A DNA stretch of 47,134 bases from Clostridiaceae bacterium (lineage in GTDB: Bacteria > Bacillota > Clostridia > Peptostreptococcales > Tindalliaceae). The stretch lies in the NCBI GenBank assembly GCA_011390155.1, contig JAABSW010000020.1, forward strand, positions 1 through 47,134, in the 5' to 3' direction. The position numbers and the translations under genes were made by a program. The notes beneath the pieces were generated by a model. That model worked only from the letters and a program-made list of their open reading frames with translations, was not told where the DNA came from and did not search any database. Shown here piece by piece: positions 2,183 through 32,461 of this stretch. Position 1 is the stretch's first letter, and the number at the start of each line of letters is the position of its first letter.

Positions 2183-2189
2183 CGGCTCT

Positions 2190-2240
2190 CACAGGAGTCA
2201 TCATCTGCAATAGCAGCAGTAAGGCGAACCCCATCGCCTA
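2190..2240 (-). promoter_or_regulatory. Fluoride riboswitch (crcB motif) aptamer
   Basis: On the minus strand the leader starts with GGCGATGG, GGTTCGCC, continues through a CTGC/GCAG hairpin and ends with ATGATGACTCCT. This is the order and near-exact sequence of crcB-motif RNAs: GGCGAUGG.GUUCGCC, a small hairpin, then GAUG.CUCC. The pseudoknot pairing GGGGT with ACTCC is possible with one G-U pair. It lies about 100 bases upstream of the antiporter ATG in the same orientation. Fluoride binding normally turns such genes on. Confidence 0.85.
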
Positions 2241-2358
2241 TAAACATAATTCATTGTGACGAATGTATCACACTTTTCTTATTTCGGCAATAGAATTTTA
2301 ATTTGCTGCACCGCTCATCGGCCTTTCTTATACGCGTTGTTTGTTCTGGGGCTTGTTA

Positions 2359-27313: not shown

Positions 27314-27327
27314 TACTTCCGGAAGTA
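27314..27327. promoter_or_regulatory. 14-bp perfect palindrome upstream of the CDF gene
   Basis: TACTTCCGGAAGTA lies in the 49-base gap between the patatin-like gene and the CDF start (both minus strand). It could be an operator for metal-dependent control or a small mRNA hairpin. Confidence 0.4.
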
Positions 27328-27339
27328 ACCGTGTCCTGT

Positions 27340-28236
27340 TTATTTCCTTTCGAGAAAGGCTTTCCATGTAAGAATATCCCGCTTACCATGTTCATACCCC
27401 AGTCGATAACTCTCTTTTAGTTTCTGGTAGTCTTTTTCCATATTTGACACCGTCATCATATTTGGGTAAACGAGAAATGCCTTACCTTCACGCTCCAGTT
27501 CTTCCAATTCTTCCAGGGTATCATTGTATAACTTGTAACGGTTCAGCATGGCTTCCGCCACCAGGGGATACTTTCGGTAAAAGGCCTTCACCAGCCTCGG
27601 GTGCTTCACCGGTTGTTTCCGGTATCCTTTGGGACGGGTGAGCACCACAAAAAACTTTTTAAACCCATCCTCTTTGGCAATGTCCAGGGCCACACCACCG
27701 CCAAGACCGCCATCCACATACACAGCGTCTTTAAAGTGAGCTGGCGGCATAAAAATGGGCAGGGATGAGGATGCCCGGACGATTTTCATTAAATCCTGCA
27801 AGGTTTGAATGTCATCCCGTGAAAAATATTTCATTTGACCTGTTTTCATATGAAAGGCGCCAATGCGCAGTTTGGCCGGATTGGCTTTGAAGGCCTTAAA
27901 ATTAAAAGGCAGGGCCGCATCCGGGTAGGGTGTCTGTTCGTAAATATACTCTGCCCGAAAATATCCCTCTCCCTTGAGAAAGGATCCCCATCCACCGAAT
28001 TTAGGGTCTTTCACCACATCTACAAAAGATCGCTTGGCTCGTTGAGTGTCACGGGTTAGGTAGTTAACACTGCAACTTGCACCCGCCGAGATGCCTGCCA
28101 CATAGTCAAAATACAGCTGGTGTTCAAGCAAATTATTCAAAAGACCAGCCGAATAGCTAGCCCTCATGCCACCGCCTTCGAAAATCAGGGCTGTGTTTTT
28201 TATGTTGTTTTCAAACAAAGCGCCATGGATTGTCAT
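27340..28236 (-). CDS. Patatin-like phospholipase
   Basis: 298 aa, no signal peptide. The Ser-Asp dyad of the family is visible: oxyanion GGGMR near residue 21, nucleophile in GISAGAS, and the Asp in VDGGLGGG. The long C-terminal half (KYPLVAEAMLNRYKLYNDTLEELEELEREGK region) matches the YjjU/RssA-like bacterial patatin branch. It is expected to hydrolyse acyl esters in the cytoplasm; the substrate is unknown. The ATG at 28236 follows GGAGATG. The CDF gene lies 49 bases downstream on the same strand, possibly cotranscribed. Confidence 0.9.
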   Translation of the reverse strand: MTIHGALFENNIKNTALIFEGGGMRASYSAGLLNNLLEHQLYFDYVAGISAGASCSVNYLTRDTQRAKRSFVDVVKDPKFGGWGSFLKGEGYFRAEYIYEQTPYPDAALPFNFKAFKANPAKLRIGAFHMKTGQMKYFSRDDIQTLQDLMKIVRASSSLPIFMPPAHFKDAVYVDGGLGGGVALDIAKEDGFKKFFVVLTRPKGYRKQPVKHPRLVKAFYRKYPLVAEAMLNRYKLYNDTLEELEELEREGKAFLVYPNMMTVSNMEKDYQKLKESYRLGYEHGKRDILTWKAFLERK

Positions 28237-28544
28237 GATGTCATCTCCAAATCAAGATTCTAATGAATTTTTATACCCATAAATACACAGATAAACACTA
28301 TATTATTGATCTTACTCATTCTTTCTCGCATTTTTCTTATGTAATGCGGATATATCCATTCTACAATTTTTCAGCAGTTGTTTTGATTTCTAAAGGTTTT
28401 CTTAAATTTTTATTAAATTTTTTAATTGTTCAATCATTCACTATGCAAATTCGATTGTTTGTGCCATAATAGCCCAAAGAGATGTCATGGATAATATAAC
28501 ATAGTTTGTGTGCTGCGCCTTAGCCAACACATATAAATAGTACA
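28237..28544. other. AT-rich intergenic stretch without a gene
   Basis: No open frame with a ribosome site is visible. It should hold the patatin promoter, which I could not fix. One spaced inverted repeat, GTTTGTGT (28504-28511) with ACACAAAC (28542-28549), lies at its right end beside the terminator of the receiver gene. Otherwise nothing is recognised. Confidence 0.4.
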
Positions 28545-28581
28545 CAAACACAACAAAACCACCCCAATGCTACGGGTGGTT
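28545..28581 (-). terminator. Terminator after the receiver-domain gene
   Basis: On the minus strand: AACCACCC / GGGTGGTT (8 bp, 9-base loop), then TTGTTGTGTTTG. It lies 23 bases after the stop at 28605. Confidence 0.8.
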
Positions 28582-28604
28582 AAAGCAGGGCTACGTTAAT
28601 ACCT

Positions 28605-29066
28605 TCAAGAAACAGGATCAGTGGAATGCATGAATATAAGGTTTGTATTTGAGCCTCCAATAGACTCTTCAACTAATTTTAATAGTTTTTCTATGTCGAA
28701 AGGTTTCATAATGACATCAACAATTCCCTGGGCCTGGCACATTTTTTTAATATCAGGGTGTATGGCTGTGCAGGTGGCTAAGACGGGAATTGAAGAAATA
28801 TGCTGATTGGACAATGAGCGAATGGTTCTGACAAGTTCCAGATCATCCTTGAGGGGTGCACAGATATTAATGATAAGCAGGTCATATCTCTCATTGTGTG
28901 TGGTAAGTCGATTCAATACTTCACTGGCATTGTTGACAACATCAGCCTCATAACCATTCTTCATTAACACTCTCTTCAATAAAAACTGGTTGGTTTTGTC
29001 TTCTTCATAAGCTAGTATACGACGGCTTGAGACCCTTTTTTTATAATTGAAATTATCGTGCTGCAC
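28605..29066 (-). CDS. Degenerate stand-alone receiver-domain protein
   Basis: 153 aa with a single response-regulator receiver fold and no output domain. Aligning YDLLIINICAP with the usual Y-D-L-x-x-x-D-x-x-M-P puts Asn at residue 67 where the phospho-acceptor Asp should be; the usual M-P is A-P. The acidic cluster (AYEEDKTN), the Thr (LATCTA) and the Lys (IMKPF) are kept. Such pseudo-receivers can act as phosphorylation-independent adaptors. The start is GTG at 29066, eight bases after AAGGAG. It is divergent from a LuxR-type response regulator gene and near a c-di-GMP-controlled kinase gene. Confidence 0.85.
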   Translation of the reverse strand: MQHDNFNYKKRVSSRRILAYEEDKTNQFLLKRVLMKNGYEADVVNNASEVLNRLTTHNERYDLLIINICAPLKDDLELVRTIRSLSNQHISSIPVLATCTAIHPDIKKMCQAQGIVDVIMKPFDIEKLLKLVEESIGGSNTNLIFMHSTDPVS

Positions 29067-29298
29067 AGGATCGTCTCCTTAACATTTCAATATTCAACCT
29101 GACATGGAAGTATGAGGAATAATGCCTTTTTATGATTATAACAGATAGTTGCTATTTCACAAAATATATTTGTCTTTCTGGGGATGACTTTTGGTCACTA
29201 TTTTGAATGTTCCTACAAATTCTCTATCACAAACTCACGAAACAAATATCCTCATGGTACAATGGACCTACCATTTGACAATGAAAGGAGCACTTATC

Positions 29299-29985
29299 TT
29301 GGATAAACTACGTCTACTCATTGTTGAAGACGACCCGCTAATGTTGGAAAGCCTGCGCCTGGTTATTGAACACCAGGATGATATGGCAGTCTTGGGTACA
29401 GCAGCGAACGGACAGGAAGCTTTGACCTTCCTGAATGACTCATGTCCTGATTTGGTATTGCTTGACCTGAAAATGCCCGTCATGGATGGCATCACGTTGA
29501 TCCGTGAAATCAGGAAAATGGATAAGACTCTTCCCATTCTGGTGCTGACCACATATTTGGATGATGATCACATCATCGATGCCCTGTCCTATGGTGCCAA
29601 CGGTTATCTGATTAAAGGCCTTGATAACCAGCAATTGTTACGAAGCATCCGCGAAGCCGCAGAAAATCATTTTATTTTACCCTGGGAGGTTGCTTCACGC
29701 ATTATTCAAAAAACCGTTAACCATGGATTAAACGTGCCCCACAGAAACCTCCTGGAATATTTTGATCAAAATGATGCCTATTCTCCTAAAGAACAGGAAA
29801 TCATCACTCACATGTTTAACCGCCTGACCAACAAAGAAATCGCTGACAAAATGTTTCTTTCCGAAGGAACAGTAAAAAACAGTATCACCAGTATTTATAA
29901 AAAGCTATCCGTGCGCAAACGCAGCGAAGCCATTAAAAGAATTCAAATACTCATTAACTCCGAGAGCTTTAATGATCAGTCATAA
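29299..29985 (+). CDS. LuxR/NarL-type response regulator
   Basis: 228 aa. The receiver has IVEDDP, phospho-acceptor D56 in VLLDLKMPVMDG, Thr in LVLTTY and Lys in YLIKGL. The C-terminal LuxR helix-turn-helix reads YSPKEQEIITHMFNRL, then NKEIADKMFLSEGTVKNSI. The start is TTG at 29299, with AAAGGAG seven to eight bases upstream. The frame is open back to 29191, but no other start has a site. No HisKA_3 kinase, the usual partner of this class, is adjacent. The nearest kinase is the c-di-GMP-regulated one downstream. Confidence 0.92.
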   Translation: MDKLRLLIVEDDPLMLESLRLVIEHQDDMAVLGTAANGQEALTFLNDSCPDLVLLDLKMPVMDGITLIREIRKMDKTLPILVLTTYLDDDHIIDALSYGANGYLIKGLDNQQLLRSIREAAENHFILPWEVASRIIQKTVNHGLNVPHRNLLEYFDQNDAYSPKEQEIITHMFNRLTNKEIADKMFLSEGTVKNSITSIYKKLSVRKRSEAIKRIQILINSESFNDQS

Positions 29986-30195
29986 TTATGAATACTGCAT
30001 AATGGTTTCATCTTGTTTTCTACAATGTTCTATGTACAAACCTCTTTTAAAAATTTTCTCTTTCAATGCTATACCGCTTTGAAGTATCACATTGAAACAA
30101 TAGCACTTTTTGACTTATTTTAACTAATTTCTATCAAGAGCTATACAAACATTCTTAAGTATGCCATACTAATAGGTATATTGGATAACCAGTTT

Positions 30196-30272
30196 AAGGG
30201 CAAACCTTTCGAAAGACAGGGACGCAAAGCCATGGACCTACGCAGCATACGCTGTAAGGCAGCCGGTTGCAC
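30196..30272 (+). promoter_or_regulatory. Class I c-di-GMP riboswitch (GEMM-I) aptamer
   Basis: The diagnostic elements occur in order: GGGCAAACC, TCGAAAGA (GAAA tetraloop cap), GGGACGCAAAGCCA, an ACGCAGC/GCTGT hairpin, then AAGGCAGCCGGTTGC closing helix P1 with GCAAACC. It is followed after about 10 bases by a terminator-like hairpin and then the kinase ATG. It makes up most of the 334-base gap after 29985; the part before 30190 is AT-rich with no motif I can fix. Confidence 0.93.
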
Positions 30273-30282
30273 TGATTGCAAG

Positions 30283-30317
30283 CCCTTTTCTGCTGATCGT
30301 TGCGAGAGGGGTATTTT
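30283..30317 (+). terminator. Expression platform: terminator stem holding the kinase ribosome site
   Basis: CCCTTTTC (30283-30290) pairs with GAGAGGGG (30304-30311) in 8 bp including G-U pairs, then TATTTTTT runs straight into the ATG at 30320. GAGAGGGG is also the only ribosome binding site. A rival pairing of GGTTGC (aptamer 3' strand) with GCAAGCC (30278-30284) would break the base of this stem. If the aptamer and terminator form together, c-di-GMP would switch the gene off. Confidence 0.7.
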
Positions 30318-30319
30318 TT

Positions 30320-31939
30320 ATGGAAGATTTGAAATTGCAGGAAGAGTTTAAGAAACTAAAAACAGAAATCAAAAAATTACAGTCTCAGTTGGATGTGTAT
30401 GAAACTTTTTATGAGCAACCCGATGAAATGGACGAAAAGTGGCGCTATCGTTATCTTTTCATGACCATGGCCCAAGGTGTCATCTACCAGGACCAGTCGG
30501 GTGCTATCATATCTGCCAATCCCTCTGCCTTGAACATTTTAGGCATCTCCCTTCATCACATACTGGGCAAATCTCCCAAAGAAGAAGGTTGGGTAGCCAT
30601 TGACGAACTAGGCAACACCATTCCCATTGAATTTCAACCTGCCATGCAGTGCCTTGCCACAGGAAGACAGGTTGGCCCTTTCACCATGGGGGTTTTAAAT
30701 CATGTTAAACACGATTATGTCTGGATCAACGTTACCTCTATACCTCTGTTCCGAAAAGGTGAAAACGTACCTTATCAGGTATATACTTCCTTCGAAGACA
30801 TCACAGAACACAAAAAACTGACCACTCAATTCCAGCTGCTTTTCAATGAAATGCTTGACGGATTCATCGTCTTTGAAGTGATTCTGGATGAACAACAGAA
30901 ACCTGAGGATTTCAGATTTTTGGCTGTTAACAATGCCTTTGAAAAGATAACTGGGATGAAGGCAGAACAGGTTATAGGACACCCTCTTACGAAACTTATT
31001 CCTGACCTGGAACCCATTTGGATTCAGTTATATGGAAAAGTACTTGCCAACGGTAAGCCCCTTCAATTCAGACAATATACCTCCGTTTTTCAAAAAACCC
31101 TTGAAGTTAAGGCTTTTACGGCAGAGCCGGGCAAGCTGGCTGTTATGTTCAGTGATGTCTCACATTTGGTTGAAGTGGAAAACAAACTATGTGAAGAAAA
31201 AACACGTGCTGAAGCTGCTAACCGTGTTAAGTCGCAATTTCTAGCCAACATGAACCATGAACTTCGCACACCTCTCAATGGACTGATGGGGATGCACCAG
31301 CTCTTAAAGCTAACCCCTTTGGACGAGGAACAATCTGGCTATGTAAGAGATGCTCTCTCCTGCTGTCAATCACTGACCCATATAGTTGACGAGATTCTCA
31401 CTTATTCCAAGTTGGAAAAAGGACCCGACGAACTGGTTGAAACCCACTTTCAGCCATGCGGTCTACTCAGTGAAATTGTCAGGCTTCATTTACCTGCAGC
31501 TAAATCAAAGGGCTTGATCCTACGACATTCCACCGACAAAGATCTTCCGCCTTATATTTTCGGTGACCGTTACAAAATAAAACAGGTGTTGATGCTGCTG
31601 ACAGGCAACGCCATAAAGTTTACACCTGAAGGGGAAGTGCATCTTTCGGTGTCTGTCTCCAGAAAACTGACTGATGGAAGTCTTGAGCTAAAGTTTTCAG
31701 TGCAGGACACCGGCATTGGCATCCCTTCCGATAAACTGGACACCATCTTTGACCGATTTATACAGGCAGACGATTCTCACACCCGCAAATATGGCGGATT
31801 GGGGTTGGGTCTAACCGCTGCCAGAGAAGTGTCCCGAAAACTCAATGGACGCCTGATGGTGGAGAGTATTGAGCACAAGGGTTCATGCTTCAGCTTCGTT
31901 TGCATTCTGAAAGACAAAGACATAGATATTGCCGGATAG
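30320..31939 (+). CDS. Soluble PAS-domain sensor histidine kinase under c-di-GMP control
   Basis: 539 aa without membrane segments. A short N-terminal coiled coil is followed by PAS 1 (about residues 42-165, ending TSFEDITEHKKL) and PAS 2 (about 168-285). Next comes HisKA with H313 in ANMNHELRTPLNG, and an HATPase domain (N box LTGNAIKFTPEG, DTGIGIP, GGLGLGLTAAREV). There is no receiver or output domain, so phosphate must go to a separate regulator; the LuxR-type regulator upstream is one candidate. The start ATG at 30320 lies just after the riboswitch terminator stem. The signal bound by the PAS domains is unknown. Confidence 0.92.
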   Translation: MEDLKLQEEFKKLKTEIKKLQSQLDVYETFYEQPDEMDEKWRYRYLFMTMAQGVIYQDQSGAIISANPSALNILGISLHHILGKSPKEEGWVAIDELGNTIPIEFQPAMQCLATGRQVGPFTMGVLNHVKHDYVWINVTSIPLFRKGENVPYQVYTSFEDITEHKKLTTQFQLLFNEMLDGFIVFEVILDEQQKPEDFRFLAVNNAFEKITGMKAEQVIGHPLTKLIPDLEPIWIQLYGKVLANGKPLQFRQYTSVFQKTLEVKAFTAEPGKLAVMFSDVSHLVEVENKLCEEKTRAEAANRVKSQFLANMNHELRTPLNGLMGMHQLLKLTPLDEEQSGYVRDALSCCQSLTHIVDEILTYSKLEKGPDELVETHFQPCGLLSEIVRLHLPAAKSKGLILRHSTDKDLPPYIFGDRYKIKQVLMLLTGNAIKFTPEGEVHLSVSVSRKLTDGSLELKFSVQDTGIGIPSDKLDTIFDRFIQADDSHTRKYGGLGLGLTAAREVSRKLNGRLMVESIEHKGSCFSFVCILKDKDIDIAG

Positions 31940-32050: not shown

Positions 32051-32094
32051 ACTCCCGCATAAGTACTTTGCTGTACTAAGAGCGGGAGTATTTT
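32051..32094 (+). terminator. Terminator between convergent kinase and DUF1801 genes
   Basis: The stem ACTCCCGC / GCGGGAGT (8 bp) with an inner AGTAC / GTACT stem is followed by TATTTT. It probably works in both directions. Confidence 0.85.
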
Positions 32095-32461
32095 AACGCC
32101 AATATTTGGTCATATCTTTCTTCTCTTCAATGTTATATTCCACAATACGATCCAGCAGATCATAATCCACTTCATCAGTCCATTTTATTCTGAATAGATT
32201 CTGTGTATGAGTGTATCCAGCCTTTAGAATTTCCTGTTCAAAATGATTTATGACTGCCGCTTCTGGCGCTGCAGCAATGTTGTTCTTGGCAAGACTGAAA
32301 CCGATGATAAAGGTGCCATGATCACTAAACATAGGATTATGCCACTTAATCTCTTCTTTTAGTTGTGGATACTTTCTCCTGATATGCATCAATATATTTT
32401 CCATTTTCTCTCGTTTTTCCGGGTCATCGATGGTGTTCAAAAAGTCATTAAAATCTTGCAT
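32093..32461 (-). CDS. DUF1801 (YdhG-like) protein
   Basis: 122 aa, soluble. Family pattern: helix with IDDPEKREKMENILMHIRRKYP, then EEIKWHNPMFSDHGTFIIGFSLAKNNIAAAP (shown as two parts in the protein), ending with a helix LLDRIVEYNIEEKKD. Relatives include the Bacillus iron-chaperone-like proteins of the frataxin-like fold, but a function here is not proven. The ATG at 32461 follows AAAGGAGAG. It stands alone, convergent to the kinase gene. Confidence 0.8.
   Translation of the reverse strand: MQDFNDFLNTIDDPEKREKMENILMHIRRKYPQLKEEIKWHNPMFSDHGTFIIGFSLAKNNIAAAPEAAVINHFEQEILKAGYTHTQNLFRIKWTDEVDYDLLDRIVEYNIEEKKDMTKYWR

Follow-up and report, generated by a model that had tools for sequence, protein, structure and literature searches.

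The window analysed here comprises 47,134 nucleotides of a contig (GenBank JAABSW010000020.1) from a Clostridiaceae bacterium of the family Tindalliaceae, whose 2.7 Mb genome, in 125 contigs, carries seven c-di-GMP-I aptamers. Only two Rfam families reach their gathering scores in the window, namely the c-di-GMP-I aptamer under study and a fluoride riboswitch (positions 2185-2247, minus strand; 44.7 bits against a gathering score of 34). The latter precedes the ORF at 914-2182 on the same strand, the product of which looks by eye like a cation:proton antiporter. The c-di-GMP-I aptamer is followed by a terminator-like hairpin that contains the ribosome site of a histidine kinase gene, and the coordinates of these features are collected in Table 1.

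Table 1. Features of the c-di-GMP-I aptamer-kinase locus (positions in the window)
Feature	Position	Strand	Basis
c-di-GMP-I riboswitch aptamer	30189..30274	+	RF01051, 68.7 bits, E 1.7e-11, gathering score 35
5' ligand-pocket strand AAGGGC, predicted antiterminator arm	30196..30201	+	folding
C92-equivalent, ligand-pairing cytosine	30270..30270	+	covariance model alignment position
Terminator 5' arm GCCCUUUUC, anti-SD (complementary to ribosome site)	30282..30290	+	folding
Ribosome site GAGAGGGG within terminator 3' arm	30304..30311	+	sequence, folding
U-rich tract TATTTTTT, ends at start codon	30312..30319	+	sequence, folding
Soluble PAS-PAS-HisKA-HATPase_c histidine kinase, 539 aa	30320..31939	+	Pfam, motifs
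NarL/LuxR-type response regulator	29299..29985	+	Response_reg + GerE (Pfam)
Stand-alone receiver-domain protein	28605..29066	-	Response_reg only (Pfam)

The assignment to the c-di-GMP-I class, made in an earlier note from the sequence alone, is borne out by the RF01051 covariance model: the score lies above the gathering score, the alignment spans model positions 1-87 of 87, and 19 of the 21 modelled pairs are standard base pairs. The same note called the aptamer near-consensus, which is fair, but the aptamer is not exceptional, ranking 18th among the 40 matches listed for its family (seven genomes). On the basis of the covariance model alignment, we take the 5' pocket strand to hold the equivalents of A18, G19, G20, G21 and C22 of the Vc2 aptamer, and we likewise assume the Vc2 numbering of the other pocket bases. 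With this numbering, the contact bases of the c-di-GMP type are present in the alignment (G20 as G30199, A47 as A30226 and C92 as C30270), as is the pocket base C46. The predicted ligand is thus c-di-GMP; it is only predicted because G20 is described as a selectivity factor rather than as a hard filter in GEMM-I aptamers (PMC9262584).

The earlier note had also proposed an eight-pair terminator stem that holds the ribosome site in its 3' arm and is followed by a U-run touching the ATG, and folding bears this out. The stem consists of eight pairs (30283-30290 with 30304-30311, two of them G-U) plus G30282-U30312, and the hairpin from 30282 to 30312 has a predicted energy of -15.2 kcal/mol, which was equalled by 8 of 200 shuffled sequences. 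Seven of the eight positions in the U-rich tract directly before the ATG are T. Taken as a whole, the 142-nt leader shows no unusual stability (z -0.39; 69 of 200 shuffled versions fold as well). A simple terminator scan reported no terminator in the leader; the likely cause is its loop limit of 8, since 13 bases lie within the uninterrupted stem. In a transcript ending at 30360, GAGAGGGG is paired with a probability of 0.99-1.0. The ATG begins 7-8 nt from the stem end (30311/30312), and platforms with a ribosome binding site in the terminator are a published category, the dual class, assigned when the hairpin lies within 10 nt of the start codon (Barrick and Breaker 2007, PMC2258182). One hairpin can probably stop both transcription and translation. 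A promoter search of the leader gave a single match, at 30092-30121, against a chance expectation of 1.4 for the region.

The downstream gene, whose ATG stands beside the U-run, was correctly described as encoding a soluble histidine kinase. Pfam reports HisKA (E 1.7e-19) and HATPase_c (E 2.9e-22) domains, and the H, N, G1, F and G2 boxes are found as NHELRTP, GNAIKFT, DTGIGIP, FDRF and GGLGLGL. The highest 19-residue mean hydropathy is 1.46, against a usual transmembrane level of about 1.6, so there is no transmembrane-like stretch. In NCBIfam the protein scores best against hybrid kinases such as TorS and BarA, always below their cut-offs, and a search of the genome contigs with the whole kinase found no relative. 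Between the kinase gene and a convergent ORF (32093-32461), an inverted repeat seen by eye, ACTCCCGC...GCGGGAGT (32051-32089), is probably a shared terminator.

The response regulator gene just upstream of the aptamer, whose best NCBIfam matches are MadR and NarL (below cut-offs), had been proposed as the phosphotransfer partner of the kinase. This partnership is unsupported. NarL-type regulators usually partner HisKA_3 kinases and this kinase is of the HisKA type, which leaves adjacency as the sole evidence. Both genes are missing at the syntenic place in the one sister genome that was found with the locus.

Predicted competing pairings in the leader

The earlier note pointed out that GGUUGC of the aptamer can pair with GCAAGCC at the base of the terminator. 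This alternative pairing, which uses the aptamer's 3' strand, does exist (-5.8 kcal/mol, 30262-30286), but it is weak and does not exclude the terminator: the UUGCA:UGCAA core, five pairs long, can form alongside the eight-pair stem. The probability of the C30270-G30278 pair, which takes up C92, runs from 0.05 to 0.90 depending on the energy set. A stronger competitor emerged from folding the ligand-free transcript before the 3' arm of the terminator is made: GCCCUU (30282-30287) pairs with the AAGGGC pocket strand. Pairing of 30282-30286 with 30197-30201 has a probability of 0.96-1.0, and that of 30287 with 30196 one of 0.73-0.93; averaged over all six pairs, the value stays within 0.73-0.99 when four energy sets, five 5' ends and three temperatures are tried. 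The pocket strand resembles the ribosome site, and one pyrimidine strand can therefore pair with either.

The direction of control is suggested by the cost of these pairings. In a transcript ending at 30312, hairpin formation gains 10.8 kcal/mol when the aptamer is held in its native fold and 4.8 kcal/mol when it is unconstrained; because the native aptamer favours the terminator, an OFF switch is predicted. Note that these calculations treat secondary structure alone and ignore tertiary contacts, Mg and pseudoknots. At equilibrium the terminator still wins without ligand, by 4.7-5.6 kcal/mol in transcripts ending at 30312-30320 and by 7.6 kcal/mol in a transcript ending at 30335, and switching would therefore have to be kinetic, occurring as polymerase passes the U-run.

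Our preferred reading, in which we place slightly better than even confidence, is that high c-di-GMP turns the soluble kinase off through control of which strand captures the pyrimidine strand. Without ligand, GCCCUU would be held by the aptamer's 5' pocket strand, perhaps aided by a UGC:GCA pairing that takes up C92, and polymerase would clear the U-run before the hairpin forms. When c-di-GMP is bound, G20 and C92 would be occupied and the pyrimidine strand left free to pair with the ribosome site, which would form the terminator. In transcripts that escape termination, the ribosome site would still be closed by the hairpin. The parts and their positions are those of Table 1, and we infer from folding both the competition between them and its direction.

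c-di-GMP-I loci in the family and the order

The c-di-GMP-I class is present in all seven family genomes searched (40 matches listed) and in 102 of 148 genomes drawn from the order. Our close survey covered 127 loci, made up of 37 of the 40 family matches, which leaves out two tandem copies and one match below the cut-off, and 90 of the best matches listed for the order, a choice that favours high scores. The 37 include two truncated aptamers (L044 and L045). First downstream genes were assigned by script, and some may be wrong. A first gene with a similar kinase core follows 3 of the 127 aptamers (the window, G005:C64 and G134:C109), a count that covered about 1.4-1.5 kb downstream and would miss kinases with long sensor regions. 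Loci that place a kinase directly under a c-di-GMP-I switch are thus uncommon in this set, though the window's is not the only one.

Tandem c-di-GMP-I aptamers occur at G000:C36:40514-40734 (minus strand) and also at G006:C31 and G005:C62. Their second aptamer is associated with a ribosome site that lies in a strand able to pair upstream of the aptamer and is followed by a U-run and an ATG, such that the second aptamer could lie wholly inside a terminator stem. At the loci of the two truncated aptamers (G003:C2:66407 and G004:C3:368742), the second tandem aptamer is broken by a long AGAAAGAAAAGTATTTCTC-like repeat run.

We call a locus dual when a strong hairpin ends no more than 12 nt from the start. 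Nine of the 127 loci are of this kind; two of the nine (L147 and L149) have masked first genes, and a third (L138) has a doubtful TTG start. At L007, in the window genome, and at L043, the ribosome site stands just before the U-run in a strand able to pair upstream of the aptamer.

A chimera control placed foreign platforms behind the window aptamer, using the 75 of 109 other hairpin loci whose hairpin is unmasked, wholly downstream and within 120 nt. Three of the 75 chimeras give an equally large gap difference, a result that is only suggestive support for competition by the pocket strand. When 110 hairpin loci are ranked by the strength of the duplex between the 5' core and the hairpin arm, the window comes second; the strongest is at L001 in the same genome, before a gene with an HD-GYP-type HDIG motif. 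When the window arm is matched against the 109 other cores, three pair better and eight tie. Over the 110 loci together, complementarity between 5' core and arm shows no enrichment (mean mid-rank 0.514, a value that 39% of 2000 permutations match or exceed), and capture by the 5' strand is not a general rule in the order.

In a folding test of 83 assessed loci, the arm was captured by the aptamer's 5' strand in 11. Such capture was seen at four of seven assessable dual loci versus 7 of 74 assessable others (Fisher 0.0055, tested after the pattern had been seen), and three of those four dual loci (L047, L050 and L112) share one platform. A pattern search for homologues of this shared platform returned only the same three, in 3 of 393 genomes, and the reversed pattern, used as a control, returned none. 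No orthologue of the window locus with an intact platform was found. Our literature search, which was shallow, did not find the 5'-strand arrangement described, and we do not claim that it is absent from the literature.

These surveys bear on the first alternative, that the same OFF switch operates with the GGUUGC:GCAAGCC hairpin as its antiterminator. As a general rule, arms match the 3' strand of the aptamer: complementarity over the 110 loci is enriched beyond every one of 2000 permutations, and the 3' strand captured the arm in 30 of the 83 assessed loci against the 11 with 5' capture. In the window itself, the default model gives the C30270-G30278 pair a probability of 0.66 at 37 C and one other energy set gives 0.87-0.90, yet the value falls to 0.05-0.07 with the Turner 1999 set, and the low stability of the hairpin and the coexistence of its core with the terminator also speak against it. 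We regard this alternative as unlikely, while giving it more weight than any of the readings considered below.

The sister-genome locus

The sister genome (G001), which is identical over the 3086 nt compared to JAGXHW010000016.1 (MAG Clostridiaceae bacterium isolate LH_M71), has a neighbourhood syntenic with the window and carries an aptamer at G001:C30:6178-6263 (L164 6178-6263; L040). The two aptamers are 88% identical over 94 nt, with no BLAST match into the adjoining upstream sequence. Directly 3' of the sister aptamer lies a piece that matches the kinase gene from 31850 onward (42 nt, 86%), the frame of which reads RLMVESVEHMGSCF... and stops after 24 residues. We conclude from this remnant that the kinase gene was once present and was then deleted, and that aptamer and kinase were therefore already linked before the two species diverged. 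No orthologue of the kinase or of the regulator was seen in G001, which is 75% complete; the best matches are 51% (core only) and 34% identical. The genes in 27318-30190 of the window, encoding a patatin-like lipase, the lone receiver protein and the NarL regulator, are missing at the syntenic place in G001, having been either inserted in the window or lost in the sister.

This conservation weighs against a second alternative, that the hairpin forms regardless of ligand and acts as a near-constitutive attenuator with little response to c-di-GMP. In the ligand-free fold the terminator is indeed ahead, the margin being about 5 kcal/mol or more, and there is a precedent in the Bacillus thuringiensis c-di-GMP-I riboswitch Bc1, which binds c-di-GMP yet shows no expression response (PMC11218506). 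However, the aptamer is conserved and the sequence just upstream is not, so selection probably acted on the aptamer at least for as long as the sister kept its kinase. We consider this reading rather improbable, somewhat more so than an antiterminator formed by the 3' strand.

The window and sister aptamers differ at 11 positions, which include three pocket bases: G30198A (G19), G30199A (G20) and C30270U (C92). To the G20/C92 count alone we added 54 further loci, for a total of 181, and these held no second aptamer with A20 and U92. The double change occurs in 1 of 181 aptamers, the sister only (1 of 179 without the two truncated ones), U at position 92 occurs in two (2 of 179), and C92 is present in 177 of 179; position 92 was located as the fifth letter counted back from the match end, a rule that the two truncated aptamers break. 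A20 with C92 is found in 31 of 181 aptamers (29 of 179) and, within the window's genus, in G001 and G002 and in none of the seven aptamers of the window genome.

The aptamer in the G20A/C92U structure 3MUV is presumably Vc2. In a c-di-GMP-I aptamer of known structure, the G20A/C92U double mutation gives c-di-AMP binding (3MUV; PMC7288161, PMC9049102), and the mutant binds c-di-GMP less well, with a KD of 4900 nM (PMC9049102). For the sister's A20/U92 pocket, decay once the gene was gone is the plainer reading; less plainly, the pocket may have drifted toward c-di-AMP. The differences at G19 and G20, whose pairing partner would have been the strand now lost, fit the pocket-strand model.

Relation to known systems

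One close parallel is Cd1 of Clostridioides difficile, an OFF switch whose antiterminator uses up the ligand-pairing C (PMC9262584). It is like the window in its aptamer fold, its pocket bases, its OFF logic, which in the window is predicted, and an antiterminator that takes the ligand-pairing C. The Cd1 antiterminator is formed by strands T, A and H, whereas the stronger predicted pairing in the window joins T with the 5' strand P; the antiterminator of pilM is given as P + A in the same source. The dual platforms of Barrick and Breaker 2007 share the hairpin arrangement with the window, but the term 'GEMM' does not appear in the main text of that paper (PMC2258182), and the ligand of the window aptamer would be a second messenger. 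Bc1 affects both transcription and translation (PMC11218506) through two terminators that exert incoherent dual control, whereas the single hairpin of the window would act coherently.

Control by translation alone, with the U-run incidental, would account for the closed ribosome site (0.99-1.0) and for the lack of a hit in the simple terminator scan. It is very unlikely in our estimation, given seven T in eight positions after an eight-pair stem of -15.2 kcal/mol in a group where termination seems to be the habit, a terminator-like hairpin standing further upstream of the gene start in 99 of the 127 surveyed loci.

A c-di-GMP riboswitch, Cdi-2-2, precedes the C. difficile cmrRST operon, which like the window locus is a signalling operon that contains a kinase (PMC6837544). 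It is of class II, as its name implies (PMC6200980), and regulates positively, whereas the window aptamer is of class I with a predicted OFF response; cmrRST has two regulators and a kinase in one operon, and in the window the kinase gene lies directly downstream of the riboswitch. The ON behaviour of the cmrRST riboswitch, together with the existence of a GEMM-I ON platform, pilM (PMC9262584), makes it conceivable that c-di-GMP raises kinase expression in the window, but this is the least probable of the readings, as aptamer and terminator arms do not overlap and holding the aptamer in its native form shifts the balance toward the terminator by about 6 kcal/mol relative to the free fold.

It is a fair inference that c-di-GMP sets the amount of the kinase, as the earlier note held, and such a link is not new in kind (compare cmrRST, PMC6837544). 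The parts of the window locus are of known kinds, and the predicted competition between pocket and ribosome site appears to be an unusual variant. A bolder generalization, which we view as a long shot, would make the pocket strand a mimic of the ribosome site, with one pyrimidine strand choosing between the pocket (on) and the ribosome site (off), would have this design used at least twice in the order, and would make the freed pocket of the sister a natural A20/U92 GEMM-I aptamer of the c-di-AMP type.

If the preferred OFF-switch reading is true, a single, very compact hairpin would let a second messenger determine how much of a two-component kinase is made. The design would be a testable one, namely a terminator that contains the ribosome binding site and whose pyrimidine strand is controlled by a pocket strand resembling that site. 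The orphaned sister aptamer would offer a natural case for examining whether the pockets of GEMM-I aptamers drift toward other cyclic dinucleotides after their gene is lost.
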